DNA of 64,000 nucleotides from a virus. Both the position numbers and the translations under genes were made by a program. Below are positions 875 through 64,000 of the stretch, one piece after another. How positions within the stretch are numbered: the first letter of the stretch is position 1; every line of letters begins with the position of its first letter. The notes beneath the pieces were generated by a model. The model had not been told where the DNA came from. It made no database searches and was given only the letters and a program-made list of their open reading frames with translations. The stretch is taken from IMG/VR virus record IMGVR_UViG_3300025141_000055, positions 18,134 to 82,133 of that record; one strand, given 5' to 3'.

Positions 875-883
875 TCTTTCTCC

Positions 884-1696: not shown

Positions 1697-1844
1697 TAAA
1701 ATGCCAGCTGAGGTTTTGGCGAACTTTCAAAAAGATCGTGACAACACCAAAGCTCCGAGTGGCGACGAATTAACTGGTAGAGCCAAGTCCGCCACTCGCA
1801 AACGTGCCTTGGCTAAGGCGCGTAAGGTAAAGCAGGCAAAATAG
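1689..1844 (+). CDS. Small basic protein (51 aa)
   Basis: A short reading frame that starts inside the stop region of the glycosyltransferase gene (ATGGCTAG overlap) and encodes 51 residues. The C-terminal half is dense in Lys and Arg (RAKSATRKRALAKARKVKQ), so it could bind nucleic acid or act as an acid-neutralising virion peptide; no family was recognised. The overlap implies translational coupling, and the frame fills the otherwise empty gap before the portal gene. Confidence 0.55.
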   Translation: MASKMPAEVLANFQKDRDNTKAPSGDELTGRAKSATRKRALAKARKVKQAK

Positions 1845-1873
1845 TCTCTTAGGAACATCCTCACTCAACGAAT

Positions 1874-4114
1874 ATGTCATCGGCCTCCGAAACACGATCT
1901 CAGTTTACCGAAATTCTGGAGGCCGCCCGCACTCAGGATCGGAGCAACCAATCCTCCACGATGGTGGTGTTGAGTCACCTTCAGCAGATGACTCTTTTGA
2001 TGATCAAGAAAGGGTTAACTTTTTATTGTGATCAGGATACTTATAGAAGCCGCACTTCTTTCCTAAATGATGTTATTGCCCTCAATAAACTAGATATTCG
2101 CTTTCCCGCGATAATTAGAAATTATCTTATTGATGGGTGCGGGCTTTTTTATTTTCGGCCTGACCCGAAGCTTAAGTATCAAATTTACTTCTTTACCAAA
2201 AACCAATATAGGGTTTATCACGATGTTAATGGCAATGTTGAAGAAGTTGTCATTCTTTATAGCTATAAAGTCAAACAAGGAGGGTTGGGCCTCCCAAGTA
2301 ATAGCTTTGGACAGAATAAACGCTATGTTCGCTTAACAATTACGGCTGACGAGATTAGTGAGATAGAGACTGATACGGAATTAAGCTTTGATCTTGAACC
2401 AGGCGCAGGTATTATGCCCGGGAGTAGAAAACCTAATAGCTTAGGGTTTATTCCGGCGGTCGAGGTTCTCAATAAGCCTAATGCGAGTGGGACAGAGGGC
2501 GAAGGTGAGTTTGATCCGTTTATGGAACAAATTGTTCTTCATAATCAACTAACGAAGAATATTGCTAAAAATATTGAATTCTTTGGTAACCCTACCCTTA
2601 TTAGTTCCCGTCCTCGGAGTGATTTAGTCGAAGCTAATGATACACAGAGTACTTTCCGCCCAACGATTAGTAGTCAGAGTGGATTCTCCGGGTTAGATCA
2701 ACCATCTACACGAGTTGCCGAGCCTTTTGGGGCCGGCATGGGTAGTGGCTTGAGGGTACCTCGCATAATTGCCAATGTGGAGCCTTCTGACCGAGTTGGT
2801 TATATGACTCCCGATCCCGTAAACGGGGATATGAATAGGTATACCTTATTGCTACGGGAAGAAATCCGAACCGCGTTAGGCGGCGTGGATGAGATATCTA
2901 TCTCTGCGGGTGCGACCGCCACGGAAATTAAAGGCTTAATGGGTAGAGCCCAAGCCACGGCTCTTCGAAAGAATAAAAGTTTTCTTTCTTATGGGTTTAA
3001 TCGACTTTTAGAGATGATGCTTTATCACCAAGAGGTGATTTTCCGCGACTCTTTTATTATGGCTACCGATATGAAGGAGCCTAAACCACCGGAAGAGCAA
3101 ACCGAAGAGTCCATAGAGAAATACCAGCGTGCGGTCTTTAAGTTTGAGGCCAAGTTAGACGCAGGTATGAAGACGGCCTTAGCGGAGAATAAAGTCCCCC
3201 GGGGGGTTGTGGGGCTCCCTGAGGATGGTGATCGGGAAGTTGAGTACCGTTATCAAGGGGATGTTTATGAGGACACAGCCTATGACATCAATCAAAAATC
3301 TATTGTGGTGAGGAACTTACAAGAACTTGGGGTAGATAGTATTGAAGCCCTTAAGTTTCTTTTCCCAGAGAAGACAGACTCTGAACGAGCAGAGATGTTG
3401 AAAGGATTTCCATTTCGTATGGTGCAGCAAACACAGTCTGCAATGCAACAATTCCTGGTATTATTAACTCAGATGTTGCAGTCTCCGCATCCTCTTGCGC
3501 CTAATCAACCCCTTGCGGCTGATCCTAGACTAAACATCACTCCGCTCCTATATAGGACATTCGATCACTTAGCGGAAGAATTAACTTACTCAGGTAGCTA
3601 TGAGCCAGCAGATCCAAGTTTCGACCCAGAGCCAGGACTCCCAGGCGGCACCGGCGCCGGTAGCTTCGGATCCACAGGTCTCAACAACCGCCTATCCCCA
3701 GTGGGTGGCACAAGCAGCTACCCCGGTGGTAGCTTCGGCACCTACGCAGCCCTTGCCACCCCAGGTGACTCCGGCTACGGCCCCTTCTATCAGCGCCCCG
3801 TCCAGCCTGTCAACGTCGCCATCGACCCCGTCCAATCCATGGGAGTCGGCGATGGGCTCCTTAGAGAGGATAATCGGGCAGGTGAACTCGCAGTCCCTCA
3901 GCCAGGGTCTACAGTCGCCCTCGACAGGGCCGGTCCAACCCGTTACAACACAGCCCAGTCAGCCTTCACAGGTCCAGCCTTGGGCTTACCAGGTGCCCCA
4001 GGTAGCCCCGACATTAACTACCAACGTCTTACCGACCCAGACTGGCTCTCAAACTTCTACGGCGACCCAACCGAAGGAAAGCGGTCTAACAAACGTAAGC
4101 AGAGACGTAGTTAA
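1874..4114 (+). CDS. Portal protein
   Basis: A 746-residue protein with the features of large phage portal proteins: an N-terminal helical region (SHLQQMTLLMIKKGLTFYCD), a middle domain with FYFRPDPKLKYQIYFFTKNQ, and the typical late segment with LREEIRTALGGVDEIS, TATEIKGLMGRAQAT and LLEMMLYHQEVIF. It would form the dodecameric vertex for DNA packaging. From about residue 576 on, the protein becomes a Gly/Pro/Ser-rich low-complexity tail that shares its DNA with the next gene in another frame, so the tail may be expendable. The stop at 4112-4114 follows a basic end (KRSNKRKQRRS). Confidence 0.85.
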   Translation: MSSASETRSQFTEILEAARTQDRSNQSSTMVVLSHLQQMTLLMIKKGLTFYCDQDTYRSRTSFLNDVIALNKLDIRFPAIIRNYLIDGCGLFYFRPDPKLKYQIYFFTKNQYRVYHDVNGNVEEVVILYSYKVKQGGLGLPSNSFGQNKRYVRLTITADEISEIETDTELSFDLEPGAGIMPGSRKPNSLGFIPAVEVLNKPNASGTEGEGEFDPFMEQIVLHNQLTKNIAKNIEFFGNPTLISSRPRSDLVEANDTQSTFRPTISSQSGFSGLDQPSTRVAEPFGAGMGSGLRVPRIIANVEPSDRVGYMTPDPVNGDMNRYTLLLREEIRTALGGVDEISISAGATATEIKGLMGRAQATALRKNKSFLSYGFNRLLEMMLYHQEVIFRDSFIMATDMKEPKPPEEQTEESIEKYQRAVFKFEAKLDAGMKTALAENKVPRGVVGLPEDGDREVEYRYQGDVYEDTAYDINQKSIVVRNLQELGVDSIEALKFLFPEKTDSERAEMLKGFPFRMVQQTQSAMQQFLVLLTQMLQSPHPLAPNQPLAADPRLNITPLLYRTFDHLAEELTYSGSYEPADPSFDPEPGLPGGTGAGSFGSTGLNNRLSPVGGTSSYPGGSFGTYAALATPGDSGYGPFYQRPVQPVNVAIDPVQSMGVGDGLLREDNRAGELAVPQPGSTVALDRAGPTRYNTAQSAFTGPALGLPGAPGSPDINYQRLTDPDWLSNFYGDPTEGKRSNKRKQRRS

Positions 4115-52984: not shown

Positions 52985-54193
52985 TTAGAAATCGAGATCG
53001 TCGATGGTAGCTGCGTGGAGGTTTTCAATCTCTGCTTTAACCTCGTCGATACTTACGTTTCGAGCATGGAGGAGTTCTTCCCGTTGAGTAAAAAGATGGT
53101 GGAGATGTTTGGCGCGCTGTTCATAGACAACCTGCTCCGTGTTGATCTCGGAAGCTAGGCCGTCCAGTTGCTCTTGACTTGTAGCAGTTTGTATTTTGGA
53201 AATGAGGTCACGATACGTTCCGGATAGAGCTAGAGACTGTTTTAAGGTTTCTAGTCCCTCGGAAGAGTCCCGTTCCTTAACTAGGCGCTCGAGTTCCGAT
53301 CGAATCTCCCCTTTAATCACGTTGTACCGCGCGAAAGCGGTATCTTTTACTCGCGCCGAGTTCTTCTTGTCTTGGAGTTGGATTCCAACTTCACGTAATT
53401 GATCCGCCAGATTTGCTAAGGCATCAAAGCCTGGGCAATGGGAGGAAATGAGATGGAGGGTCTCAGCTGTTACCTGCCATGAACCCCGCCGTTTAGCACC
53501 ACCAGTTTGGCGTTCACCTACTTTGGAAGAGACGCGTACATCTAGGTCATCCAGAAGTTCTGCTGCTTTACCTAACGCTCGATCAGCAGCTCCTTTTCGT
53601 GCCGCTTCTAATACTTGGTTGGTGTTAGCGGCTGCTAGCTCTTGGACTTCGGTAGTGAAGTGCTGGTCCGCAGTGGAGGCTACCGACAAGAGGATGGGGT
53701 TAGGACCAATTACATTGACGTGAATGGGATCTTCAAATTCCTTTTGGGTGGGGAATAATTTTAAATAGGCTTCTTTAGCTATTTTCAAGCCCACTACATC
53801 ATCCTTAAAGAGAGGGTCTAAGAAACCACTAACGGTCGCTGACCATAGTTCGTATTCTTGGATCCATATTCCTTTAAGCTTTTGATTGTAGTGATGAGCC
53901 TTCAGCCTTATCTCACTGATAATTTTGGTGGCGTCGACGAAGTGCTCATGACATAGAAAGTGGATGTCACCATTGTGAATGGTGCACTCTTCATATAAGC
54001 GTCGTTGGAGTAATCGTAGATTCCCTAAATATTCTTTGAGCTTGCCGGAAAGGGTAGGGCGTACAGAAACGGCGTGTTGTTTCTCCAGGGTCTCGACGAC
54101 ACTCTTGGGGAGTTTGAGGTCGTCGAGTTTAATCTGGGTGCTTTGACGCAAGTTGGCACTGACCGAACAGTGAAGGAGGAAGACGTCTGTCAT
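52985..54193 (-). CDS. DUF3150-like partner of the MoxR/VWA pair (402 aa)
   Basis: A 402-residue mostly helical protein (LGNLRLLQRRLYEECTIHN, DATKIISEIRLKAHHYNQKL, LERLVKERDSSEGLETLKQS). In layout and neighbourhood it resembles DUF3150-type proteins found next to MoxR ATPase-VWA gene pairs; the assignment is tentative because no single motif decides it. It overlaps the upstream gene by four bases, forming a four-gene cluster. Confidence 0.5.
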   Translation of the reverse strand: MTDVFLLHCSVSANLRQSTQIKLDDLKLPKSVVETLEKQHAVSVRPTLSGKLKEYLGNLRLLQRRLYEECTIHNGDIHFLCHEHFVDATKIISEIRLKAHHYNQKLKGIWIQEYELWSATVSGFLDPLFKDDVVGLKIAKEAYLKLFPTQKEFEDPIHVNVIGPNPILLSVASTADQHFTTEVQELAAANTNQVLEAARKGAADRALGKAAELLDDLDVRVSSKVGERQTGGAKRRGSWQVTAETLHLISSHCPGFDALANLADQLREVGIQLQDKKNSARVKDTAFARYNVIKGEIRSELERLVKERDSSEGLETLKQSLALSGTYRDLISKIQTATSQEQLDGLASEINTEQVVYEQRAKHLHHLFTQREELLHARNVSIDEVKAEIENLHAATIDDLDF

Positions 54194-54621
54194 TTAGCTG
54201 TACTCTTGAGACGTGTATAGGCCGTGGTGATGTTGTCGGTAACTAGATCGATTTGCTCCTTAAGAACTAATTCAACAATGAGGTGCTTTCGCTTAGTTTC
54301 GGCAACTTTGAGTTCTCTCTTTAGGCGATCGATGCGGTTGTTTAGAACATCGAGGTCTTTGTGTTGAGTAGGTACACGGCGTACCCTTACAACAATCTGG
54401 GTATCGACTTCTGGAAACTTGAATAAGGAGGAGGGTCCTTGAAAGCAGCTGAAGTCTTGTCCCTGTTTGTCTGCTACGTAAAGTGCGTTATGCAAATTAC
54501 TTTTACTAGCGTCAAATGGAGTACGAAATCCTTGCGTAAGTTGGTCTAGTGCTTCGTCGTACTCATTCCATAAGGATGCAGTAGTGCGCCCTTGAGCAAT
54601 GAGGGTGTCAGGATTAGTCAT
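54190..54621 (-). CDS. Hypothetical protein of the MoxR cluster (143 aa)
   Basis: A 143-residue protein: an N-terminal folded part (WNEYDEALDQLTQGFRTPF), QIVVRVRRVPTQHKDLD, and a long basic coiled coil (LNNRIDRLKRELKVAETKRK). No family recognised. ATGA overlap with the following gene couples it to the ATPase cluster; it lies 23 bases after thioredoxin. Leader CTTTACACCACTCACCCC just before its ATG has no Shine-Dalgarno. Confidence 0.55.
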   Translation of the reverse strand: MTNPDTLIAQGRTTASLWNEYDEALDQLTQGFRTPFDASKSNLHNALYVADKQGQDFSCFQGPSSLFKFPEVDTQIVVRVRRVPTQHKDLDVLNNRIDRLKRELKVAETKRKHLIVELVLKEQIDLVTDNITTAYTRLKSTAK

Positions 54622-54644
54622 GGGGTGAGTGGTGTAAAGGGCGG

Positions 54645-55004
54645 TTAGAGGTGGGAGTTGAGCTTTTCCATGAGGACTTCATGGCTTACAGCTCCTGTGA
54701 TGGATTCAATCACTTTGCCTTCTACAAAAAGTTTGAGAGTCGGGATACTGCGAATGCCATATTGAACCGTGGTTTCAGGGTTGTCGTCAGTGTTGACTTT
54801 TACAACCTTTACTTTCCCCTCGAGCTCGTTGGCTACGTCTTCAAGAATGGGTGCAAGTAATTTGCATGGCCCACACCAGGGAGCCCAAAAATCAACAAGA
54901 ACTGGGGTGTCATGCTGGAGAACTTCTTTATCGAAGTTCTTATTTTGGGCTGTTCCGACGTTGTGGGGACCTTCAGTGAAGTCTCGCAGTTTCCGCTTCG
55001 GCAT
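54645..55004 (-). CDS. trxA: Thioredoxin
   Basis: A 119-residue thioredoxin with the redox site WAPWCGPCKLL (Cys44, Cys47), the conserved VLVDFWAPW strand before it and the cis-Pro loop IRSIPTLKLF. It reduces protein disulfides; in T7 the host homologue is the polymerase processivity factor, so the phage copy might serve the polymerase here, though no thioredoxin-binding insertion was identified in that enzyme. First gene after a strong promoter and a 5' stem-loop. Confidence 0.93.
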   Translation of the reverse strand: MPKRKLRDFTEGPHNVGTAQNKNFDKEVLQHDTPVLVDFWAPWCGPCKLLAPILEDVANELEGKVKVVKVNTDDNPETTVQYGIRSIPTLKLFVEGKVIESITGAVSHEVLMEKLNSHL

Positions 55005-55036
55005 TGATAGAAGGAGTGAAGGAGTGTGTGCACCGC

Positions 55037-55059
55037 GTAAGGCTCATGTGCCGCCTTAC
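55037..55059 (-). promoter_or_regulatory. 5'-terminal stem-loop of the thioredoxin transcript
   Basis: GTAAGGC and GCCTTAC form a perfect 7-bp stem with a 9-base loop. The stem begins at the predicted transcription start, as 5'-terminal hairpins that stabilise mRNA do. Confidence 0.6.
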
Positions 55060-55064
55060 TGAGC

Positions 55065-55093
55065 ATGATACATTCCTCAGCTCACGGTGTCAA
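55065..55093 (-). promoter_or_regulatory. Sigma-70 promoter for the thioredoxin operon
   Basis: On the leftward strand: TTGACA (55093-55088), a 17-base spacer, and TATCAT (55070-55065). The -35 is perfect and the -10 differs at one position from TATAAT with its key T-A...T kept. Start would be near 55059, 55 bases before the thioredoxin ATG. Confidence 0.85.
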
Positions 55094-55202
55094 CTCATCC
55101 TGATAAATTTATCTTTCGCAACAGTAGGATCAGAAGTGCTGAATATTGTAACTTTCTCTTTATATCCGAAGTGACCTTCATTCTGCACTCTTCTTATTCT
55201 CT

Positions 55203-55529
55203 TTATCTTTCTGCTAGCTCAACGTAGAGCTTACGACCGCTCTCCGTTATCGTCAAAAGATTCATGCTGGCCTTGTCAGGGTGGGGTTCGACACGTACTA
55301 AGTCCATCCCGCGTTTGTTCTTCTGCGTCTTGGTCCCCAACAAACAGCAGTTACGGGAAATGGAAGCTTTAGGGACATCTAAGGATTCCACCAATTCAGC
55401 TTGGGAAATCCCTCGGTCTCCCTCTTCAGCAATAGTTAGGAAGATGACCATGGTTAGGCATGAGACTTCCCTTTGATTAAAACGGGCAAAAGGTAAAAGA
55501 CGTTTGGAAAGTTTAGGTCGAAGGATCAT
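55203..55529 (-). CDS. MarR-type winged-helix regulator
   Basis: A 108-residue protein: FNQREVSCLTMVIFLTIAEE, then GISQAELVESLDVPKASISR (HTH) and MDLVRVEPHPDKASMNLLTI (wing) with TESGRKLYVEL at the end. This is the MarR family layout with a shortened N-terminal dimerisation helix. Such proteins bind 16-20 bp dyads, so it is a candidate for the dyad array at 61959-62310 and for autoregulation at the adjacent thioredoxin promoter. Confidence 0.8.
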   Translation of the reverse strand: MILRPKLSKRLLPFARFNQREVSCLTMVIFLTIAEEGDRGISQAELVESLDVPKASISRNCCLLGTKTQKNKRGMDLVRVEPHPDKASMNLLTITESGRKLYVELAER

Positions 55530-55596
55530 GGGTGGTGGCGTGGATAAATTCGGCTGTCATTTAATTAAAATTTTTAGTGTTCCCACGGACTAAGAA

Positions 55597-55959
55597 CTAT
55601 TCAGTTCCCCCGTAGGTCATTCCAAAATCATCATGGGAGCTTTCACCTATTTCTAATCGCCCATGGCGGATACGTTCTGGGGGATTGGAGGATCTCTGTT
55701 TGAGGGGGCGACTTGGTTTTCTGAGGTCTGCCAGATAGGAGCGCGCAGTGGCTGCGGTTTGCATTACTTCTCTTAAGTTGTGATCGATCTGATTTAAGGT
55801 CTCATTAGTAATCTCTTGTGTCTCATCGTCGTCCGGCCGCTGTGAGTAAAGCACATCGCGGATCGCATCGGCGACGTGGGTAGTCTTGAGGTTTGTCGAC
55901 AGATTGTTTACCTGGTCGAGTAGTTTGGCGGCAATTTCTTGGTCATTCAAGGGTGTCAT
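55597..55959 (-). CDS. Hypothetical protein (120 aa)
   Basis: A 120-residue protein with a helical first half (DQEIAAKLLDQVNNLSTNLK, NLREVMQTAATARSYLADLR) and a basic disordered end. No family recognised. ATGA-type overlap with the upstream gene at 55956 couples the two. Confidence 0.55.
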   Translation of the reverse strand: MTPLNDQEIAAKLLDQVNNLSTNLKTTHVADAIRDVLYSQRPDDDETQEITNETLNQIDHNLREVMQTAATARSYLADLRKPSRPLKQRSSNPPERIRHGRLEIGESSHDDFGMTYGGTE

Positions 55960-56237
55960 TTCTTCTTAAGTTTGGGAGGGTTTACGCCTGTTTGCACAAG
56001 CATGGTCAACAAAATGTCTGAGTCATAAAATGCCCTCAAGTGGTCATGCATTTCTTCTGATCCAGCATCTTGTAAGTCCTCAAGAATTGTTGCATAGACA
56101 CACTTACGCAGGGTGTCGGCTTTCATATCCTTGACAAGCTGTTGTGCAAAGACTTTCTTAAGGTTGCCCAGCTGTTCCTCGTCTAGTGCTGCGAGCACGC
56201 GAGGGGTGTCAGGGTGGGTGAGATCTTCTAAAGACAT
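55956..56237 (-). CDS. Hypothetical protein (93 aa)
   Basis: A 93-residue helical acidic protein (LEDLTHPDTPRVLAALDEEQ, LGNLKKVFAQQLVKDMKADT, LRKCVYATILEDLQDAGSEE). No family recognised. The leader is AACACACACCACCC right before the ATG, without Shine-Dalgarno. Confidence 0.55.
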   Translation of the reverse strand: MSLEDLTHPDTPRVLAALDEEQLGNLKKVFAQQLVKDMKADTLRKCVYATILEDLQDAGSEEMHDHLRAFYDSDILLTMLVQTGVNPPKLKKK

Positions 56238-56259
56238 GGGTGGTGTGTGTTAGAGGTGG

Positions 56260-56496
56260 TTAGTCGTAATCATCTGGAGCATTTTCATATAGCATTTCTT
56301 CAAGTTGTTTGAGGTAGCCTATTAGGTCCGAGATCTTCTTTTGTCTCGGTTCACTATGAGTTGTCTGGTCAGATATTGCTTCCCTAAATTCCTCCTGCAG
56401 CAGAGTAACTAAGCGCTCAGCACTGGCTCGAGAGCTACAAGAAAAGACCACGACTGATTCGCCGTGGTCGTTGAGGGTAGTCACATTAAAAGTCAT
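56260..56496 (-). CDS. Hypothetical protein (78 aa)
   Basis: A 78-residue protein: VTTLNDHGESVVVFSCSSRA, SAERLVTLLQEEFREAIS. The phrase 'hydrophobic strand - S-S-R-x-x-A-x-x - helix' is also seen in the protein at 58925 (FCGSFSSRVAANQWIEKIKA), so the two are probably distant paralogues of an unknown fold. Its ATG overlaps the upstream stop. Confidence 0.55.
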   Translation of the reverse strand: MTFNVTTLNDHGESVVVFSCSSRASAERLVTLLQEEFREAISDQTTHSEPRQKKISDLIGYLKQLEEMLYENAPDDYD

Positions 56497-56981
56497 AAAC
56501 CCGATAAAATAAGGAGCTTGCCCAACAAAGTATTGTAAAAGCTAAGCGCCTCACTATCGCTATATTCGTTACGGGCTTTAGAAACTAAGCTAATTAATTC
56601 ATTCCATTCCTCCTCTATTAGAGGAAGACTAAATTTTTCGGCAGCTCTCAACAAATCATTTATTTGAAATGATTCGGATGGGAGTACCTCATCATTAAGT
56701 AAAGGATGAATAGGATCAGTAGTAGGGTAGCGATCGTCAGGTAGATCATTGGCCTGTTTGAAATTGGATAGAGGGTGGTTAATTAGTTCCTGAGTTAAGG
56801 GGGTGGTGTCCTGCATAGAGGTGGAGGGATCGGGGCGGGGTGAAATTGAATAATGTGCATCTTTATAGAGAGTGAGGTTGTCCAGCATCTCTCTACAGTC
56901 GGCGAAATCAGAAGTGATTTCTTGCCAGGCCATAGGCGAGTCAGATGTGTTGTTCTCGATTATGGGGGTGTCATGGGTCAT
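56493..56981 (-). CDS. Hypothetical protein with EEW motif (162 aa)
   Basis: A 162-residue protein: a disordered acidic first 100 residues, then LRAAEKFSLPLIEEEWNELI and SDSEALSFYNTLLGKLLILS. The EEW-x-x-L helix is shared with the small proteins at 58695 and 60109. No known family. Confidence 0.5.
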   Translation of the reverse strand: MTHDTPIIENNTSDSPMAWQEITSDFADCREMLDNLTLYKDAHYSISPRPDPSTSMQDTTPLTQELINHPLSNFKQANDLPDDRYPTTDPIHPLLNDEVLPSESFQINDLLRAAEKFSLPLIEEEWNELISLVSKARNEYSDSEALSFYNTLLGKLLILSGL

Positions 56982-57006
56982 AGGGGTAGTCTCCCGTTAG
57001 ATAAGT

Positions 57007-57369
57007 TTACTCAGCAATAAGGGTGTTATCGAGAGTGAGGGATAAGTGGAGAGGAGGAAAAGTGTGAGCAAGCTGGGTGAGTAATCTCCCCCATGGCTCG
57101 GTCCAGTTCCCTGACCAGAAGCCTGCCCCGTGGTAATCACGAGTAAGCATGAAGTCATGCTGGACTTGGTTCCATATGTCCCCCTCATTATCTGGATGAA
57201 GCATTACGGCGAGAGCGTTGTCTGGGTTAAACCCAATCGTTTCCGCTTTAAATCGGAATTCTTTCCAATCCCGATCAACCCTATTAACTAGGTCAGGGTC
57301 AGGTTCGTACTCTCCGTCTAAATAGTTAGACCATAAGAGAGTCTCAAGCGCTGCTTGGGCATGAGTCAT
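57007..57369 (-). CDS. Hypothetical protein (120 aa)
   Basis: A 120-residue protein (MTHAQAALETLLWSNYLDGE, DRDWKEFRFKAETIGFNPDN, WNQVQHDFMLTRDYHGAGFW). Aromatic-rich, acidic, with an ordered look; no family recognised, though small phage proteins with 'D-F-x-L-T-R-x-G-H/Y-G-A-G-F-W' are widespread and unassigned. The ATG at 57369 directly follows four ACATCA units; an in-frame ATG at 57516 would translate the leader repeats and is rejected. Confidence 0.65.
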   Translation of the reverse strand: MTHAQAALETLLWSNYLDGEYEPDPDLVNRVDRDWKEFRFKAETIGFNPDNALAVMLHPDNEGDIWNQVQHDFMLTRDYHGAGFWSGNWTEPWGRLLTQLAHTFPPLHLSLTLDNTLIAE

Positions 57370-57454
57370 GATGTTGATGTTGATGTTGATGTGATTGAGT
57401 GCTGAGGATGAGCTCAGCAGGGAACCCCTTAAGGGCTCCGTGTTGAGTTCACAT
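57370..57454 (-). promoter_or_regulatory. Dual-hairpin CA-rich leader, family A copy 1
   Basis: Read leftward: hairpin I (57421-57439, GGAGCCC with GGGTTCC), hairpin II (57401-57418, GCTGAG/CTCAGC), a short spacer, then four ACATCA units ending at the ATG. The 62 bases 57393-57454 are identical to 58479-58540. Confidence 0.8.
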
Positions 57455-57475
57455 GTGGGGATAGGTAGCAAAAAA

Positions 57476-57513
57476 GAATACCCCTGAAAGCAGGTGCCGT
57501 CAGGGGTGATGGT
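57476..57513 (-). repeat. Family E hairpin repeat, copy 1 (38 bp)
   Basis: Identical to 58000-58037. CCCCTGA and TCAGGGG form a 7-bp stem around a 12-base loop. It lies right after the stop of the gene at 57513-57974 and upstream of leader family A; a run of T follows in this copy only. Confidence 0.85.
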
Positions 57514-57974
57514 CATAGCGGGTGGTGATTCCAGCCAAGGTCAGGAATGAAGACATACATGTATTCACAGGAGCTATTAAGCCAGTACTTCTTGGCTGAC
57601 TTGAGCGTTGCCTTAGTGATTGGCGGATCGCCGTAGTCACTACCGGTAGCATTCCAAGGACCGTCGTCACCTCGCTCCCAGTGATATAGGGGTTGAGGAC
57701 CTCGGTCACCTTCCTTGCAGAAGTAGCCCTCCGCATCACGGATGACCTCATTGTTTTCGTCCCTGAGCATGCTGTCGGCGTAAGTCTTCCAGGTATCTCG
57801 GGTGCGGAGACTCGACATTGAGCCTGGCTTGATTAGTGCCTTAACCTTTTCGAGCGAGTTGTAGTGCTCTATAAGGATTGGCACTTGATGTTTTGGATAG
57901 CCGTCCCAGTGGCAGTAGACCGCACGAATGCGGCCACATGGCAACTGGTAGCCAATAGCAGATCGTGTTCCCAT
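57513..57974 (-). CDS. Conserved phage protein of the MGTRSAIG family (153 aa)
   Basis: A 153-residue protein starting MGTRSAIGYQLPCGRIRAVY, then CHWDGYPKHQVPILIEHYNS and KVKALIKPGSMSSLRT. This start (M-G-T-R-S...Y-C-H-W-D-G-Y-P...H-Y) belongs to a widespread phage family without assigned function, often among early genes. The later half (CEYMYVFIPDLGW) is aromatic. It is preceded by leader family E copy 2 region. Confidence 0.75.
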   Translation of the reverse strand: MGTRSAIGYQLPCGRIRAVYCHWDGYPKHQVPILIEHYNSLEKVKALIKPGSMSSLRTRDTWKTYADSMLRDENNEVIRDAEGYFCKEGDRGPQPLYHWERGDDGPWNATGSDYGDPPITKATLKSAKKYWLNSSCEYMYVFIPDLGWNHHPL

Positions 57975-57999
57975 GGTTAGAACTCCAATAGTGGGTCAG

Positions 58000-58037
58000 G
58001 AATACCCCTGAAAGCAGGTGCCGTCAGGGGTGATGGT
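58000..58037 (-). repeat. Family E hairpin repeat, copy 2 (38 bp)
   Basis: Exact second copy of 57476-57513, lying between the gene at 58054-58443 and the gene starting at 57974, i.e. in the 5' leader of the latter. Confidence 0.85.
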
Positions 58038-58053
58038 TAGTAGCCTTTGAGTC

Positions 58054-58443
58054 TCATGGGTACTCTTCGGTGGGGTTGTCTTCGAGAGCTAGATCCATGA
58101 TGGAATTAGAGAGTTCCTCGATAAAATCTTGAGAACCGTGATTACAGTTGCTTAGGTGGGTATGGACATTTTCGTAGCCTCTCTTCTTTCGTTCCTCCCA
58201 ATCAAGGGATATCCAGCCCTCCGTCGCTTCGAGGGCTTCATTATTTGCGATCGTTTGCTTCTCCTCTTCGGTGTATTCCGAAGCTTCTTTTGGGACAACA
58301 ACTCCTTGATCGCAGAATTGGACTGAAATCCCGTATCCAAGGAGGATGTACGAGAGGTCTGACAGCTTGCGGTGTTCAGATTTCGCTATTCGAGATAGCA
58401 GGTCGTACTGTTTGTCTTTAAGTTGAATTGAGAGCGTTTTCAT
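58054..58443 (-). CDS. Possible ribbon-helix-helix protein (129 aa)
   Basis: A 129-residue protein. The first 40 residues (MKTLSIQLKDKQYDLLSRIA, then HRKLSDLSYILLGYGISV) have the strand-helix-helix plan of small ribbon-helix-helix DNA-binding domains; the remaining part is acidic. It may be a regulator of the early region. The start follows five ACATCA units. Confidence 0.6.
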   Translation of the reverse strand: MKTLSIQLKDKQYDLLSRIAKSEHRKLSDLSYILLGYGISVQFCDQGVVVPKEASEYTEEEKQTIANNEALEATEGWISLDWEERKKRGYENVHTHLSNCNHGSQDFIEELSNSIMDLALEDNPTEEYP

Positions 58444-58540
58444 AATGTTGATGTTGATGTTGATGTTGATGTTGATGTGATTGAGTGCTGAGGATGAGCT
58501 CAGCAGGGAACCCCTTAAGGGCTCCGTGTTGAGTTCACAT
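58444..58540 (-). promoter_or_regulatory. Dual-hairpin CA-rich leader, family A copy 2
   Basis: Same order as copy 1: hairpin I, hairpin II, then five ACATCA units plus one variant before the ATG at 58443. The 62 bases 58479-58540 are identical to copy 1; the number of hexamers differs. Its upstream end overlaps the stop of the gene at 58535. Confidence 0.8.
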
Positions 58541-58720
58541 AAACAAGTCTGGGTGTGACTTCTTTAGTTCCTCTGTAAGTTTGTCTAGTTCCTCATCTGT
58601 TCGTTCATAGATGTATTCATCCACTACTGCATATAAGAGGTCCGTATTCTCCTTACATGCGTAATAAAGAATGTTGCACATCTTGATCCGACGCTTAAGA
58701 GGTCCCTTTGTGTGAGGCAT
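58535..58720 (-). CDS. Hypothetical protein (61 aa)
   Basis: A 61-residue protein (MPHTKGPLKRRIKMCNILYY, LLYAVVDEYIYERTDEELDK), helical, basic start and acidic end. No family recognised. Its stop lies at the border of the family A repeat, and it overlaps the upstream gene by 26 bases. Confidence 0.5.
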   Translation of the reverse strand: MPHTKGPLKRRIKMCNILYYACKENTDLLYAVVDEYIYERTDEELDKLTEELKKSHPDLFM

Positions 58721-58865
58721 GGTAGTGACGTAATGTAAGATAAATTCGGCACCAAAACTCAGTATCTATCTCAGTGGTGTAGTCACCTTGAGTTAGGAGA
58801 AGTTCTAGTAATTCTTTCCATTCCTCGTTGTTTAGACGAAGTTCAGGTTTAGAAGGGGTGTCCAT
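58695..58865 (-). CDS. Small EEW-motif protein (56 aa)
   Basis: A 56-residue protein: LRLNNEEWKELLELLLTQGD, then EIDTEFWCRIYLTLRHYHAS. The EEW-x-x-L helix and the later aromatic helix resemble the C-terminal part of the protein at 56493 and the one at 60109. ATG 58865 is preferred; ATG 58880 is possible. Function unknown. Confidence 0.5.
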   Translation of the reverse strand: MDTPSKPELRLNNEEWKELLELLLTQGDYTTEIDTEFWCRIYLTLRHYHASHKGTS

Positions 58866-58924
58866 CCGATAGCCCCACAAGGCTGTGAGTCGGGAACAGA
58901 TTAGCCGAGGATTGGTTCAATTGA

Positions 58925-59155
58925 TCAGCCCTGCTCTGAGTAGTTGGTGAACTCGTAAGTAGGCCGAAAAACATCAGCAGATCTGACGACTTCAAACCAT
59001 GGGTAGGCCATGGAGAACTCGCTAGGTGTTGCCTTGAAATCTGCTTTGATCTTTTCAATCCATTGATTAGCTGCAACCCTGCTTGAAAAGCTGCCACAGA
59101 AATCAGTGGTGCCTTGGTCGTGGCAAACGACTGAGTAAGGATCAAGTTTGTTCAT
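58925..59155 (-). CDS. Hypothetical protein (76 aa)
   Basis: A 76-residue protein: YSVVCHDQGTTDFCGSFSSR, VAANQWIEKIKADFKATPSE and PWFEVVRSADVF. Two strands plus helix, similar in plan to the protein at 56260. Function unknown. Its leader carries family B copy 1. Confidence 0.55.
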   Translation of the reverse strand: MNKLDPYSVVCHDQGTTDFCGSFSSRVAANQWIEKIKADFKATPSEFSMAYPWFEVVRSADVFRPTYEFTNYSEQG

Positions 59156-59226
59156 CGGATTAAGGGGTGGTGTGTGTCCCCCGAAGGGGAATGCTCAGGG
59201 GAGCCTTGAAGCTCCCCAGCAGGCCT
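59156..59226 (-). promoter_or_regulatory. Dual-hairpin leader, family B copy 1 (UUCG loop)
   Basis: Leftward: hairpin I GGGGAGC/GCTCCCC (59197-59216), then hairpin II CCCC-TTCG-GGGG (59178-59189), then ACACACACCACCCCTTAATC and the ATG. The 56 bases 59190-59245 are repeated at 59466-59521. Confidence 0.8.
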
Positions 59227-59430
59227 TTACCTGATGAGCGGTTGAGTCAGCTCCTTGCGGGCTGTGTCGAATGCCCCTGGGAAGAGGACAAAATCAAAGG
59301 CTGTTTTGTAGTTGTGGCCTTTGTTAACCATTAGAGCGATAGTGAAGCTGATCGTTTGTTCGTTGGTGAGCTGTTGCTCTTCGGCGAAAGTGAAAGCCGC
59401 ATCTTGAAGCTCTTGTAGTGGGCGAAGCAT
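59227..59430 (-). CDS. Hypothetical protein (67 aa)
   Basis: A 67-residue helical protein (LRPLQELQDAAFTFAEEQQL, TISFTIALMVNKGHNYKTAF). No family recognised. The last five codons (QPLIR) and the stop are part of the family B repeat, which shows that the repeat unit extends into coding sequence. Confidence 0.5.
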   Translation of the reverse strand: MLRPLQELQDAAFTFAEEQQLTNEQTISFTIALMVNKGHNYKTAFDFVLFPGAFDTARKELTQPLIR

Positions 59431-59522
59431 TGGATTAGGGGGTGATGTGTAGTGCCCTTTCGGGCAATGCTCAGGGGAGCCTTGAAGCTCCCCAGCAGGC
59501 CTTTACCTGATGAGCGGTTGAC
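59431..59522 (-). promoter_or_regulatory. Dual-hairpin leader, family B copy 2 (GAAA loop)
   Basis: Leftward: hairpin I as in copy 1, then hairpin II GCCC-GAAA-GGGC (59454-59465), then ACTACACATCACCCCCTAAT and the ATG at 59430. Compared with copy 1, hairpin II has kept its place and length while loop and a stem pair changed. Confidence 0.8.
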
Positions 59523-59867
59523 TCAGCGCGACATGGAAGGTTGGGGATTGTGCCCTGCATCCGGGAATGCTGGGGTGTACTCTTGTTGGGCCTTAAGGCC
59601 TGTAGCTACTTCAAAGAAGTAGAGAGCATCTATATTTTCGCCTCCAATGTGCCACCAATGAGGACCCATTGGCGTGGCCTCTTCTTTCCAGTCGTAAACA
59701 TAGAACCCTTCAGAGGTGTGATGAGGGGTCATAAATTCAATGCTGACTTTACCGTCAGAATCATCTAAAGGTTCAGAATATGAACCCTTTCTTATGTAGC
59801 TTGGTTCACCTAACTTTTCTACCAATGTTTGGTAGGTCGTGTGAACGTAACCTTGTAGGCTGCTCAT
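59523..59867 (-). CDS. Hypothetical protein (114 aa)
   Basis: A 114-residue protein: MSSLQGYVHTTYQTLVEKLG, VSIEFMTPHHTSEGFYVYDW and HIGGENIDALYFFEVATGLK. The strands and the phrase 'W-H-I-G-G' are seen in small phage proteins of unknown function. The ATG at 59867 is used; the in-frame ATG at 59909 lies in the leader hairpin. Confidence 0.6.
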   Translation of the reverse strand: MSSLQGYVHTTYQTLVEKLGEPSYIRKGSYSEPLDDSDGKVSIEFMTPHHTSEGFYVYDWKEEATPMGPHWWHIGGENIDALYFFEVATGLKAQQEYTPAFPDAGHNPQPSMSR

Positions 59868-59949
59868 GTTGTTGATGATGTGATGTGAATAAAGAGTGGT
59901 TTGAACCACTCAGGGAGAGAACCCTAGGGAATCTCTCCGGGAGTGAGTC
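59868..59949 (-). promoter_or_regulatory. Dual-hairpin leader, family C copy 1
   Basis: Leftward: hairpin I GGAGAGA/TCTCTCC, hairpin II TGAGTGGTT/AACCACTC, then a G-free tract TTCACATCACATCATCAACA before the ATG. Related copies at 60698-60755 and 61083-61140 have GGAGGGG/CCCCTCC in hairpin I. Confidence 0.8.
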
Positions 59950-60112
59950 AGTCCTGGTGCAAAGAGGGGTTCCGTTGTGCGGCTGTTAAGGAGGGGTGGT
60001 CATACCAATCCTCTTCAACATCCTCCGGAGCAATGTCAGGGTTGACATCCTCTTGCCCCTCATTAATTAACTCTTGCATTTCCCAATAGTCCAGGTTGTA
60101 AGGAGAGCTCAT
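59948..60112 (-). CDS. Small acidic protein (54 aa)
   Basis: A 54-residue very acidic frame: MSSPYNLDYWEMQELINEGQ, EDVNPDIAPEDVEEDWYDHP. Acidic DNA-mimic or inhibitor proteins of phages look like this, but no family was recognised. Its ATG overlaps the stop of the upstream gene, and its stop lies at the start of leader family C copy 1. Confidence 0.5.
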   Translation of the reverse strand: MSSPYNLDYWEMQELINEGQEDVNPDIAPEDVEEDWYDHPSLTAAQRNPSLHQD

Positions 60113-60282
60113 TTGTTTAGACCATTAATAGAATTTTCTAGCTCGTCGACTAGCTGATGTAGATTCAGCCATTCTTCGTCGCTCATCTTCCATTGATGGC
60201 CATGCACTCTCATTTCATTTTTGAACCAGGATCCTGCAATAGTTGCGAGGGTATCGGCAGAATGAACTTTGATGTAAGTCAT
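60109..60282 (-). CDS. Small EEW-motif protein (57 aa)
   Basis: A 57-residue frame: MTYIKVHSADTLATIAGSWF, then HQWKMSDEEWLNLHQLVDEL. It carries the EEW helix shared with the proteins at 58695 and 56493. Start ATG 60282 directly follows the CA-rich end of leader family D. The end overlaps the next ATG by four bases. Confidence 0.55.
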   Translation of the reverse strand: MTYIKVHSADTLATIAGSWFKNEMRVHGHQWKMSDEEWLNLHQLVDELENSINGLNK

Positions 60283-60345
60283 GATGTTGATGTGTAGAAA
60301 ATGCTGGAAGTGAACCCAGCAGGGAGCCTCGAAAGGCTCCGGGAC
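60283..60345 (-). promoter_or_regulatory. Dual-hairpin leader, family D (UUCG loop)
   Basis: Leftward: hairpin I GGAGCCT-TTCG-AGGCTCC (60340-60323), CT, hairpin II GCTGG/CCAGC (60320-60303), then CTACACATCAACATC and ATG. It is a diverged version of family A: same order, same CTGCTG junction, two copies of the ACATCA-type hexamer. Confidence 0.8.
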
Positions 60346-60349
60346 GGGA

Positions 60350-60673
60350 TCAGTTTGTGGAGTTTTTAAAGATCGGTTTGCGTAACTCTTCTACTCCGTC
60401 CGTTACCCACTGCTTGAGGTTTTGGTAACCACAACGGCACCAGGTATAGAACGCTGGTCTTTCCCTGAGGTCGTTCTTAATACCGGGCTTTACCCAGTAT
60501 TCGTATATATCCCCAAGGGTCAACTCTTTGGAGTCCTTAAGTTGCACCTTCTCGGTCTTTAGCTGCGTGACTTGCTTCTCAAGGTCCTCAATGTATCCCT
60601 TGCGGGCCTCGAGGTGTTCAGTGAGCAGCTTGATAGTCAGGCGCCCCTGTGGATCAACTTTAGGGTCGATCAT
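60350..60673 (-). CDS. Hypothetical coiled-coil protein (107 aa)
   Basis: A 107-residue protein: a coiled coil (LLTEHLEARKGYIEDLEKQV, TQLKTEKVQLKDSKELTLGD) then an aromatic, Cys-containing end (YEYWVKPGIKNDLRERPAF, CRCGYQNLKQWVTDG). No family recognised. Confidence 0.55.
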   Translation of the reverse strand: MIDPKVDPQGRLTIKLLTEHLEARKGYIEDLEKQVTQLKTEKVQLKDSKELTLGDIYEYWVKPGIKNDLRERPAFYTWCRCGYQNLKQWVTDGVEELRKPIFKNSTN

Positions 60674-60755
60674 CTGTTTTCTCCGTGGTGTGTGAATGAG
60701 TGGTTTGAACCACTCAGGGAGGGGACCAATTACGGAACCCCTCCGGGAGTGAGTC
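60674..60755 (-). promoter_or_regulatory. Dual-hairpin leader, family C copy 2
   Basis: Leftward: hairpin I GGAGGGG/CCCCTCC, hairpin II GAGTGGTT/AACCACTC, then ATTCACACACCACGG and the ATG. The 58 bases 60698-60755 match 61083-61140 with one or two differences. Confidence 0.8.
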
Positions 60756-60756
60756 G

Positions 60757-61059
60757 TTAGTTAATACTTAGTGAGTAAGTATTTTCTAAATAGGAGTAGA
60801 CAGCGCCCCATATTTCAGTAGGTGGGTATTGCCCGGCGGTGTAGTCAAAATCATTTGCATCCACCGTTAGGCGGCCATTGCTGGACCTCCCCACCATTAG
60901 GGGTGTGTCTCCCAGAAAGCCGTAGCGACTCATAACTTTCTTACGGTCTGAATCTCTACGGGTCTTGTCCTGTTGCCATGCTTCCCGTGTCCCGTAGTCA
61001 AGGGTATTGATACGGGCTTGACGTTTTGCGTAAGCAAAGAGATCGTTTAAAGATTTCAT
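60757..61059 (-). CDS. Hypothetical protein (100 aa)
   Basis: A 100-residue protein: MKSLNDLFAYAKRQARINTL, TRRDSDRKKVMSRYGFLGDT and EIWGAVYSYLENTYSLSIN. Basic first half, aromatic end. ATG 61059 preferred; the in-frame ATG at 61098 lies inside the leader. Function unknown. Confidence 0.55.
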   Translation of the reverse strand: MKSLNDLFAYAKRQARINTLDYGTREAWQQDKTRRDSDRKKVMSRYGFLGDTPLMVGRSSNGRLTVDANDFDYTAGQYPPTEIWGAVYSYLENTYSLSIN

Positions 61060-61140
61060 CAGGTTTGGGGTGTGGTGTGAATGAGTGGTTTGAACCACTC
61101 AGGGAGGGGACCAATTAAGGAACCCCTCCGGGAGTGAGTC
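61060..61140 (-). promoter_or_regulatory. Dual-hairpin leader, family C copy 3
   Basis: Leftward: hairpin I GGAGGGG/CCCCTCC, hairpin II GAGTGGTT/AACCACTC, then ATTCACACCACACCCCAAAC and the ATG at 61059. Confidence 0.8.
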
Positions 61141-61372
61141 AGTCCTCTTTGTCTTCGTGTTTCTCGAGGGTGTATTCGAGATCAGCCAGACTGTCTAGGA
61201 CACCAACGATTGGGTGCTCTTCTTCTTCCCAGTTGTACCAAAGATCTTCGCCTGTATTCGCTCTAAACTCGCGTAAGGCTTTAATAACCTCGGCCGCGGC
61301 GTCTATGAGGAACACCGTTTGATCGACGGTCAACGTTGAAGAATCAAGCAGCTCAGGTAGTTGGGGGGTCAT
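61139..61372 (-). CDS. Hypothetical acidic protein (77 aa)
   Basis: A 77-residue protein: MTPQLPELLDSSTLTVDQTV, FLIDAAAEVIKALREFRANT and a very acidic end (YNWEEEEHPIVGVLDSLADL). It is the first gene of the leftward early unit next to the control region. No family recognised; acidic early phage proteins may act on host enzymes, which is only a possibility. Confidence 0.55.
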   Translation of the reverse strand: MTPQLPELLDSSTLTVDQTVFLIDAAAEVIKALREFRANTGEDLWYNWEEEEHPIVGVLDSLADLEYTLEKHEDKED

Positions 61373-61440
61373 GGTGAGTAACCGGTGTGGATAAGAGAGG
61401 CGTGAGCCCCTCATTCAGCCGTCATGGCTCAAGGAGAGGG
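61373..61440 (-). promoter_or_regulatory. Dual-hairpin leader of the first early gene
   Basis: Leftward: AGCC/GGCT hairpin (61417-61429), then GAGGGGC-TCAC-GCCTCTC (61395-61412), then TATCCACACCGGTTACTCACC and the ATG. It keeps the two-hairpin plan of the other leaders without sequence identity. Confidence 0.6.
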
Positions 61441-61455
61441 TCAATTTATTCCGGT

Positions 61456-61471
61456 TGATCATTAATGATCA
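61456..61471. promoter_or_regulatory. Perfect 16-bp palindrome
   Basis: TGATCATTAATGATCA is its own reverse complement. It lies 84 bases upstream of the first leftward early gene, an operator-like position. Confidence 0.6.
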
Positions 61472-61589
61472 TGACCAAATTCGCTCAGCTGGTAATAAAT
61501 ACCTAGTAGGTTGATTGTGCGGCCGGTAGGCAACAACCCGGAAGGAAAGACTTAAAAGTAAAAGCACTCATAAAGAGCACACAACGCAC

Positions 61590-61613
61590 CGAACCTAAAC
61601 CGGTTCTAGTTCG
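61590..61613. repeat. 24-bp imperfect palindrome, copy 1
   Basis: CGAACCTAA, then the AACCGGTT centre, and TAGTTCG arms; exact second copy at 61710-61733, 120 bases further. The arms CGAAC/GTTCG and centre ACCGGT are symmetrical. Confidence 0.75.
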
Positions 61614-61709
61614 TGTCCAAGTTCTGTCCATCCGGATTGATGATAGGAAGGGAATTCCCTGCCCACCTTCCCTGCGGGCCCCTGCGTACCTGCTGTGTAG
61701 ACAGATACG

Positions 61710-61733
61710 CGAACCTAAACCGGTTCTAGTTCG
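61710..61733. repeat. 24-bp imperfect palindrome, copy 2
   Basis: Exact copy of 61590-61613. Together they frame a G/C-rich stretch containing a GCGTA/TACGC inverted repeat (61684-61710). Confidence 0.75.
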
Positions 61734-61958
61734 GGCGCGCGGGTATACACATCCACATTGAGCGGGTGACCTGTGCACATTATTCAATTATCAAGTTAAG
61801 TTTCGCGGCGTCTCGTGGTCTGGTTCTTCACTTGCGACGTTGGCTCATCACCAATCTGTCTTAACAAGGTTCACAGTCCGCGTCGTTCGCTAACTGAAGT
61901 CTAGCTACTTAAGGCAGCTTGTCGGAACATTTAAGGATTAATTAAACATTCGCCGACT

Positions 61959-62310
61959 TAAGTAAAAATACTTAGGTCGCGTGACCTAATTACATCATAC
62001 TCGATTATGTCAACATAATGGCATTCCTTAACAATTTCTTAACAATCGGCCTAGTGTTTACGTTAAATTAGGTATAATTACCTAGTTAAGTATTATAACA
62101 AGTAGGTATATATACTTAGGCATTTATACTTAGTTAAGTAGTGTAACAATTAGGTATGTATACTTAGGCATTTATACTTAAGTATTAATACTTATTGATT
62201 ATTACTTTTAAAAATTAAGTATATGTACCTAGGTACAAATGATGATAGGTATAACTACTCACCCTAGGTATCGATACTCATAGGTATAAACACCTAGGTA
62301 CTTATGCCTA
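61959..62310. repeat. Array of 16-bp dyads TARGTA-N4-TACYTA (operator, origin or centromere-like)
   Basis: Half-sites separated by exactly 10 bases start at 61959, 61973, 62069, 62103, 62151, 62179, 62216, 62246, 62265, 62281 and, weaker, 62295. Examples: TAGGTATAATTACCTA and TAAGTATTAATACTTA. Further single half-sites lie at 62087, 62127, 62135, 62175 and 62396. The region is AT-rich and holds no gene. It separates the leftward early genes from the rightward genes at 62520. Confidence 0.85.
62087..62180. repeat. 48-bp tandem direct repeat inside the dyad array
   Basis: The unit starting TAAGTA at 62087 recurs at 62135, with TAACAA, TAGGTAT and ATACTTAGGCATTTATACTT at the same offset of 48 bases and only a few differences. 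Confidence 0.75.
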
Positions 62311-62506
62311 CCCACAATGTGTAATTTTCCAGCCTGCCCGCAATCCCCTTTTTTTTATATATACGCGCTGGGCGACGGCGGGGGCGAGAAGGGTCTAGGT
62401 ATCTTGGCGGTATTTTGGGGGTAAAGTTTTTGACTAGTAATATACTAACAGCTGCCCTAAAAAAAATCCAGGAGTGTAAATAAAGGTTAAAATAGACTCG
62501 ATGTCT

Positions 62507-62514
62507 TATAAATA
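62507..62514 (+). promoter_or_regulatory. TATAAATA box before the rightward g62520
   Basis: TATAAATA, the T4-type late promoter sequence, ends six bases before the ATG at 62520, which would leave almost no 5' leader. A role is uncertain. Confidence 0.3.
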
Positions 62515-62519
62515 AAGTC

Positions 62520-63032
62520 ATGTCTGCTTACGGGCCTGGTGCTGTCCAACTGGGAGCCGGAGTTCCAGGATTTAAATTTGGTGAGGTATCCGAGCCTGCT
62601 GAAGTTCCTCTTGGCCATGAGCACTGGAATATGAATAAAACAAATCCGGGTTGGTATCACGGCGACCCCTATGCGCCTTCTCCTGCTGGTGGTTTTCCTG
62701 ATCAATATCAGGGAGCACCAGCTCCAGCCGAAGCTACCGAGCATTCTCAGTTTATTGACGCAGTTAACCAGCACATCGCCCAAATGCACCTGGCGCGTGC
62801 AATTCGTGGAATTTTAGAAGAGCCTCCGGGTACTAGCCCTCAGATTGAGCATCCAAGGGGTACTAGCCCTCAGTATCCAACTCGAGAAGAACCTCTCTGG
62901 GGTCCTCCTGTCCCTGGCGCTGGTTCTTCAACTGAGTATCCAACTCGAGAAGAACCTCTCTGGGGTCCTCCTATGCCTCGAGAAGAACCTCTCTGGGGTC
63001 CTCCTATGCCTCGAGAAGAACCTCTCTGGTGA
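62520..63032 (+). CDS. Proline-rich protein with 11-residue tandem repeats (170 aa)
   Basis: A 170-residue protein. The first 105 residues are Gly/Pro/His-rich with one helical part (FIDAVNQHIAQMHLARAIRG). The C-terminus is a tandem array of REEPLWGPPMP-type units, of which the last two are identical at the DNA level (33-bp period); the frame ends in the middle of a unit (EEPLW-stop). It looks like a virion or scaffold-type disordered protein. Style matches the next gene. Confidence 0.6.
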   Translation: MSAYGPGAVQLGAGVPGFKFGEVSEPAEVPLGHEHWNMNKTNPGWYHGDPYAPSPAGGFPDQYQGAPAPAEATEHSQFIDAVNQHIAQMHLARAIRGILEEPPGTSPQIEHPRGTSPQYPTREEPLWGPPVPGAGSSTEYPTREEPLWGPPMPREEPLWGPPMPREEPLW

Positions 63033-63103
63033 GAAGATGGACCTCACAGAGATTCAATTAGTTAGGGGAATATGCCCGTCTTCCGCTAAAGAGCAATTGA
63101 TTA

Positions 63104-64000
63104 ATGTTTAGACTCGCAGGACAAAATCCAAGCGTAGAAGAGCTTGTTTATATTCCCAAGCCTGGCGGTCGCGAATGGAAACATCCTGTCCTCAAACCAG
63201 GGATGGATGGCTTTAGCGGGCCGCCAACGCTTGAACCTATTAAGCCATATAACCCTAGTGAAGACGAGTCGGAGTTCATTCCGCTGGATTTAGCCCATAG
63301 CCACGAACGTGTTCATAAGCATCGATGGAATCAATGGCCAGATCCGGGGTACAAGGATGATTCGACATTTATAGATCTTGAATATAGACCCGGATGGAGG
63401 GAACGCCATCCAAACGGTCCAAAGGAGTTGGAGAAGCTTATTCCTTACAACCCGAAAGATGACCCAGGTAGGGAAATTGATTATCTAGCTGAGTTGCGAT
63501 ACCCACTAAGTAGACCCGTTCCTATGCCTGAATATAGGCATCGGCCAGATCCTCATTTCCCTAACTCCAGGCCAGTCCCTATACCGGAATATCAGCCGCC
63601 GGTAGATGGTCGTTGGGGAGACGCTATTCCAGTACCTATGCCTGAATATCGAGTTCCAGGACATGGGGGGTATTACCCGCAGGTAAGTGATAATACTTAC
63701 TGGGCTGGCGAAAGATTAAATATCCCAAAGGAAACATTAATAGCAGCGACACCAGGCGAGATGAGGCTCATATTAGATAAAGTCACTCAGAGGTTTAAGA
63801 ACGGTCAGTTAACAGTAGAACAATTACGATCTGCGCTTGTCGAAGCAGCCTTCATAGCTAATCCGAAGGGAGAGGGGACGCACCTGAAGCAAATGATTGA
63901 CAAGGCATACGAAAATCCTCTAACCAGCTTCCTTGTATCAAATCCCGATGCTGCCCAAGCTCTTGCCAAGAAGAGCTTGCCCATGCTTCAACAGTTTGGC
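63104..64000 (+). CDS. Proline-rich virion-like protein, cut by the window end (299 aa visible)
   Basis: An open frame from ATG 63104 to the last base. It has Pro/Tyr/Arg-rich, weakly repeated parts (RPVPMPEYRHRPDP, RPVPIPEYQPPVDG, IPVPMPEYRVPGHGG) and then a helical domain (ETLIAATPGEMRLILDKVTQ, LTVEQLRSALVEAAFIANP). No family recognised. The repeats and neighbour suggest a virion or assembly protein. The stop lies beyond the window. A 24-codon frame at 63035 precedes it and may be a leader. Confidence 0.6.
   Translation, partial: MFRLAGQNPSVEELVYIPKPGGREWKHPVLKPGMDGFSGPPTLEPIKPYNPSEDESEFIPLDLAHSHERVHKHRWNQWPDPGYKDDSTFIDLEYRPGWRERHPNGPKELEKLIPYNPKDDPGREIDYLAELRYPLSRPVPMPEYRHRPDPHFPNSRPVPIPEYQPPVDGRWGDAIPVPMPEYRVPGHGGYYPQVSDNTYWAGERLNIPKETLIAATPGEMRLILDKVTQRFKNGQLTVEQLRSALVEAAFIANPKGEGTHLKQMIDKAYENPLTSFLVSNPDAAQALAKKSLPMLQQFG

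Follow-up and report, generated by a model that had tools for sequence, protein, structure and literature searches.

The window considered here, i.e. the whole stretch of 64,000 nucleotides that was analysed, comprises positions 18134-82133 of the 82,133-base IMG/VR virus record IMGVR_UViG_3300025141_000055 and contains a leftward region of small early genes, nine of which are preceded by structured intercistronic linkers, the element in question. By its sequence, the contig is a distant relative of Synechococcus phage S-EIV1, which was the one phage isolate matched by the portal-like protein of the window (41%) and in which the leftward small-gene region likewise takes up one end of the block of leftward genes. 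At the DNA level, positions 54000-64000 matched no phage record, and Rfam gave no match at the gathering threshold in the whole window and two sub-threshold matches in 55500-62000, neither of them at the leaders. Related loci were collected using two window proteins as queries; one fetched locus, L006, is 99.9% identical to the window across 15.7 kb, and the loci L103, L014, L021 and L109 gave no Rfam family match. Most early-gene proteins of the window have no homologues among the fetched loci, and the shuffling of the window's own genes can therefore be traced only as far as L006. The linkers, with their folds as predicted, are as follows (the z-score refers to the minimum free energy (MFE) relative to a leader's own shuffles):

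61373-61450 (-): leader of gene 61372-61139, belonging to no family; predicted fold, z-score -3.43
61412-61395 (-): second hairpin of the 61372 leader, GAGGGG-CUCACG-CCUCUC, from the fold
61060-61138 (-): linker B1; two hairpins of 7 bp with one C between them (61129-61082), hexaloop UUCAAA, then a CA-rich tract
60674-60756 (-): linker B2; dual hairpin 60744-60697, GGAG within the tract
60283-60349 (-): linker D; dual hairpin 60340-60302 with hexaloop UUCACU, then the tract
59868-59947 (-): linker B3; dual hairpin 59938-59893, in which stem I differs from that of B1 at two pairs, each changed on both sides
59431-59522 (-): linker C1; three hairpins, the final one GCCC-GAAA-GGGC
59156-59251 (-): linker C2; like C1 with final hairpin CCCC-UUCG-GGGG, stop codon (TAA) of the upstream gene inside the linker
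58444-58540 (-): linker A2; dual hairpin 58525-58486 with hexaloop CUCAUC, (AUCAAC)n tract; takes in the final codon ATG and the TGA of the upstream gene
57370-57454 (-): linker A1; dual hairpin 57439-57400, 86 nt the same as A2 including the gene-end ATGTGA
58000-58037 (-): linker E, copy 1; hairpin CCCCTGA...TCAGGGG, precedes gene 57974
57476-57513 (-): linker E, copy 2; downstream of gene 57974-57513 and followed by TATTCTTTTTT

The genes associated with them are:

61139-61372 (-): small early gene, 77 amino acids (aa)
60757-61059 (-): small early gene, 100 aa, without family match
60350-60673 (-): small early gene, 107 aa
60109-60282 (-): small early gene, 57 aa
59523-59867 (-): small early gene, 114 aa, without family match
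59227-59430 (-): small early gene, 67 aa
58925-59155 (-): small early gene, 76 aa, without family match
58054-58443 (-): small early gene, 129 aa, without family match
57513-57974 (-): gene of 153 aa, phrog_1987, missing from L006, which has a single E copy
57007-57369 (-): small early gene, 120 aa, phrog_1915/20867

Structure and composition of the leaders

The sequence-only reading had proposed that nine starts share one plan, namely two hairpins, a G-poor CA-rich tract and the ATG. Each of the nine starts is present and has hairpins upstream, followed by tract and ATG, but the plan is not uniform: the six linkers of families A, B and D share one geometry and the 61372 leader also has two hairpins, whereas family C has three (a short one, then GGGGAGC-UUCAAG-GCUCCCC, then GCCC-GAAA-GGGC or CCCC-UUCG-GGGG). 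Repeat comparison bore out families A, B and C as true repeats, with 86 nt at 100% identity in A (58540-58455 and 57454-57369), 71 nt at 96% plus a third, diverged copy in B, and 66 nt at 97% in C; D is, as had been suspected, a diverged form of A that shares the CCCTGCTG junction, and the 61372 leader fits none of them. The starts 60112, 58720 and 58880/58862 of the same region are without the leader plan. Overlooked earlier was linker E, whose two identical copies of 38 nt (58037-58000 and 57513-57476) flank gene 57974-57513.

The six A, B and D sites consist of a 7-bp stem I that starts with GGAG, a lone unpaired C and a 7-bp stem II with the hexaloop nUCAnn, the exception being a T-T mismatch as the outermost stem II pair of B3. 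Scanning the window for this geometry returned the six sites and one further strong site on the coding strand, while shuffles gave 0-1 each; the hexaloop occurred in 6/6 sites and in none of the shuffled matches. In an alignment of A, D, B1 and B3, all 52 of 52 cells were paired and 7 of 13 pairs carried double changes, which corresponds to a covariation score of 0.846 versus 0.308 in shuffled data (0/500). The double changes comprise two between B1 and B3 (both in stem I), one per stem between A and D, and one between C1 and C2, the latter accompanied by a loop swap from GAAA to UUCG; moreover, stem I of A and stem II of D contain G-U pairs on the coding strand. The geometry descriptor was used instead of a single covariance model for the nine leaders, since MAFFT put A and B out of register. 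The leaders are also more strongly folded than other starts, with MFE z-scores between -1.65 and -5.35 for positions -100 to -1 (at most -2.6 in seven of the nine), compared to a mean of -0.66 (standard deviation 1.42) for 54 other starts of the window.

The proposed G-poor tract holds for the typical leader, as the leaders have a median of 1 G in their final 26 nt, versus 5 at other starts, and a Shine-Dalgarno (SD)-like tetramer is missing from the last 20 nt in 8/9 leaders. It fails, however, at 60673, where GGAG lies 7 nt upstream of the ATG, and at 59155, with five G in the last 26 nt. In silico, the start region is more often unpaired in leaders (0.67) than at other starts (0.50).

Leaders and gene order in related phages

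Beyond the window, the geometry together with a CA tract was found in L006 only. Exact searches of IMG/VR likewise returned L006 only for hairpin II of A, and no match for hairpin II of B or for C. In 11/18 records, the relatives carry a leader that differs from those of the window, i.e. CCCGC-UAAC-GCGGGGCCAACUCACACAAU-CA tract-AUG. This arrangement of GC hairpin, CCAACUCACACAAU, CA tract and AUG amounts to about 50 copies in all and was placed at 44 junctions on 25 contigs, before 18 gene families. Stem and motif are near-invariant, loop and tract variable, and the third pair is C-G, A-U (L007) or U-A (L010). A host origin of this leader was unsupported, as bacterial and archaeal genomes gave one match, in a metagenome-assembled genome of an Acidobacteriaceae bacterium.

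S-EIV1 uses yet another structured element, the pseudoknot-like GTCCyrAGyATGACnTTAAAnTGCTyr, ahead of several starts. The six such leaders (L103/L104; at about 43012, 39528, 38809, 33602, 30513 and 25919 of the S-EIV1 record) include one ahead of the annotated single-stranded DNA (ssDNA)-binding protein gene, and the element also occurs in L133-L252. A strict version of the pattern is present in at least 120 IMG/VR stretches, and the R6-N26 pair is, among the matches listed, G-C in 73, A-U in 31, G-U in 12 and otherwise in 11. The element had no Rfam match in the scanned loci and its letters occur in none of the papers searched, and it is possibly a widespread, previously undescribed phage leader RNA. 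The idea of a reused RNA element thus gains from the compensatory changes, from the coding-strand G-U pairs and from the differing structured leaders with which the relatives follow the plan.

The window also contains one clean case of a cassette difference. L006 aligns with the window on either side of gene 57974-57513 and lacks both that gene and one of the E copies, with the junction inside the 38-nt repeat; an assembly collapse at this repeat is an unlikely explanation. In addition, A1 holds the ATGTGA that forms the final codon and stop of the gene preceding A2, and one upstream gene ends inside C2, as would be expected if units had been joined by recombination. Among the relatives, one upstream gene family is followed at leader junctions by different downstream families in different phages, and the leader is not tied to gene family (43/136 downstream, 39/103 upstream). 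Together with L006, the same leader between different gene pairs upholds the earlier suggestion of homologous linkers for cassette shuffling, and the enrichment of exchange above non-leader junctions in the relatives is partial only.

Several further repeats were noted. In L247, the pseudoknot-like element is followed by CTGATGAGTCC...GGACGAAACAC, which we take to resemble the core letters of a hammerhead ribozyme; Rfam gave tRNAs only in this locus. The S-EIV1 record has repeated, possibly structured leaders at about 41480 and 40789 (AAACCCTGGGC...GTCCCAGG) and at about 43791 and 43497 (GATCCGTCAAAGCGGGT), and a different contig, L023, shows repeated hairpin-TTTTTT-CACATTCAACTGTG-like linkers, i.e. 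with a T-run, in 700-3320. In the window itself, two identical 24-nt copies of CGAACCTAAACCGGTTCTAGTTCG (61590-61613 and 61710-61733) lie upstream of early genes and are possibly operator or promoter-associated sites, and a TAGGTATA/CCTAGGTA repeat cluster at 62069-62305, where there is no convincing gene, is possibly an origin or control region.

Known systems and the function of the linkers

According to the sequence-only reading, no phage system known to it has such a plan, which is too strong a statement. In Cluster K mycobacteriophages, start-associated sequences (SAS) and their extended form (ESAS) are short repeats just upstream of the starts of many non-structural gene families; SAS is a 13-bp GGGATAGGAGCCC that could pair in part with 16S rRNA, about half of its copies have an upstream inverted repeat, and RNA pairing of the ESAS repeats is, according to the authors, not generally supported (PMC3203893). 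Like SAS/ESAS, the linkers are repeated at the starts of diverse non-structural genes, but their tract is CA-rich and mostly SD-less and their stems covary; GGGATAGGAGCCC was not apparent in the inspected leaders, though no search aimed at it was made. The promoter early stem-loop (PeSL) cassettes of T4-like phages, as described in a citing paper (PMC4503421) and in the titles of Arbiol 2010 and Comeau 2014, combine an early promoter with a terminator stem-loop, are repeated among the small early genes of a variable region and are linked to shuffling. Gene exchange at the elements is found here too, in the gene missing from L006 and the varied gene pairs at the relatives' leaders. In contrast to PeSLs as portrayed in these sources, the linkers are without a convincing promoter-like site and most are without a T-run: a sigma-70 scan of 54000-62600 gave 4 matches versus 10.4 in shuffles, although cyanophage promoters may differ, the sole overlap is a weak 9/12 match at 60696-60669 in linker B2, with none in the other linkers, and T-rich tails follow only D, B3 and E copy 2. 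The T4 gp32 and gp43 operators similarly place an RNA structure upstream of a region overlapping the initiation site, yet they are described as single-gene autoregulatory sites (PMC3014915), as opposed to nine copies in one early region with a putative reader only. HK022 putRNA, compared by shape only, shares two neighbouring stem-loops in early phage RNA and differs in its longer stems, its triplex, its two copies near promoters and the lack of a conserved pre-start tract (PMC9378689). None of the compared systems matched in all defining features, and the linkers are a variant rather than a member of any of them, the nearest being SAS/ESAS by placement, PeSLs by the association with shuffling and the T4 operators by upstream structure plus initiation region.

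From our point of view, which gives this reading about an even chance of being correct, the linkers would be intercistronic RNA gene-start modules that provide each small gene with an SD-independent start and whose repeats allow cassettes to be gained and lost. Located directly behind the stop of one small gene in a presumably shared leftward early transcript, each linker would give the next gene a structured 5' boundary of two close-set hairpins (three in C), followed by the CA-rich tract, poor in G, weakly folded and mostly without an SD, on which the ribosome would land. SD-free mRNAs depend on low structure around the start, and about half of the cyanobacterial genes are without an SD (PMC3121790); an SD-less tract would fit a cyanobacterial host. 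As each module would bring a start signal with it, translation of an unrelated gene placed between two modules would still take place, and the repeats would permit gain or loss of gene-plus-linker units via homologous recombination.

Several points weigh against this reading. Deleting the hairpins in silico did not systematically alter start accessibility, which speaks against a simple function of the hairpins as guards that keep the tract open and hence leaves their own role unexplained. The A/B/D alignment is a manual one in which the loops were masked, the dual-hairpin sequence is known from just one further record, L006, and a formal covariation test of the relatives' GC hairpin was weak (38/500). 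Furthermore, CCAACUCACACAAU is conserved more strictly than a generic unstructured tract requires. With non-leader junctions of the same early zone in the relatives as the comparison set, leader junctions were less conserved from the view of the downstream gene (0.136 vs 0.283, 0/500) but not from that of the upstream gene (0.195 vs 0.241, 103/500).

It is conceivable, albeit rather unlikely, that the structured part is instead an operator, where a phage or host RNA-binding protein controls many early genes through the nUCAnn hexaloop or, in the relatives, through the hairpin and CCAACUCACACAAU. Such a trans-acting reader of hexaloop or tract would account for a geometry and loop that stay fixed while the stem sequence changes, and for a 14-nt motif that is strictly conserved beside a variable hairpin loop and tract in the relatives. 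The T4 operators are built in a comparable manner, the gp43 operator combining the ribosome-binding site with a hairpin some 40 nt upstream of it and the gp32 operator having a pseudoknot (PMC3014915), and the six pseudoknot-like leaders of S-EIV1, one of them ahead of the ssDNA-binding protein gene, point in the same direction. The reader is hypothetical, however, and the structured part is wholly replaced in the relatives.

We regard it as slightly less probable still that the hairpins act in RNA processing or mRNA stability, cleaving or capping the polycistronic early transcript at the boundaries between genes, as exemplified by the early RNase III sites of T7. Such a function would suit their stable folds and their place right behind the stop codons of what appears to be a polycistron, but stems of 4-8 bp are, as a matter of general knowledge, short for RNase III, and the conserved hexaloop and the downstream tract would be left unexplained. 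That the linkers serve as recombination homology only, i.e. as PeSL-like boundaries whose likeness is maintained by gene conversion and whose folds are incidental, appears improbable: near-identical copies separate unrelated genes, the cassette difference lies at the E copies and the gene-end ATGTGA of A2 is also found in A1, yet this neither accounts for the compensatory changes and coding-strand G-U pairs nor for a geometry common to A and B, families too different to recombine. Transcription control by terminators, attenuators or PUT-like antiterminators is very improbable, since, although the dual hairpins recall HK022 putRNA, a T-rich stretch after hairpin II in D and B3 passes a loose terminator scan and TATTCTTTTTT follows E copy 2, the remaining linkers continue CA-rich rather than U-rich, putRNA, of about 70 nt, has longer stems, a triplex and two copies downstream of PL and PR (PMC9378689), and nine copies within 4 kb would be odd.

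Returning to the gene-start modules, one could speculate, with considerable doubt, that S-EIV1-like cyanophages possess a post-transcriptional regulon whose tags are read by a phage factor and which any cassette inserted between tags would join. It is equally doubtful whether these tags would be interchangeable, each early gene carrying either a dual hairpin, a GC hairpin with CCAACUCACACAAU or a pseudoknot, always together with an SD-less tract. If the module reading is true, this cyanophage lineage may add or drop small early genes that would each still have a working translation start, and the linkers would be an RNA element with which initiation without an SD could be tested in cyanobacteria. 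Start-associated repeats, known from mycobacteriophages, would then extend to cyanophage-like viruses, here with evidence for RNA pairing.

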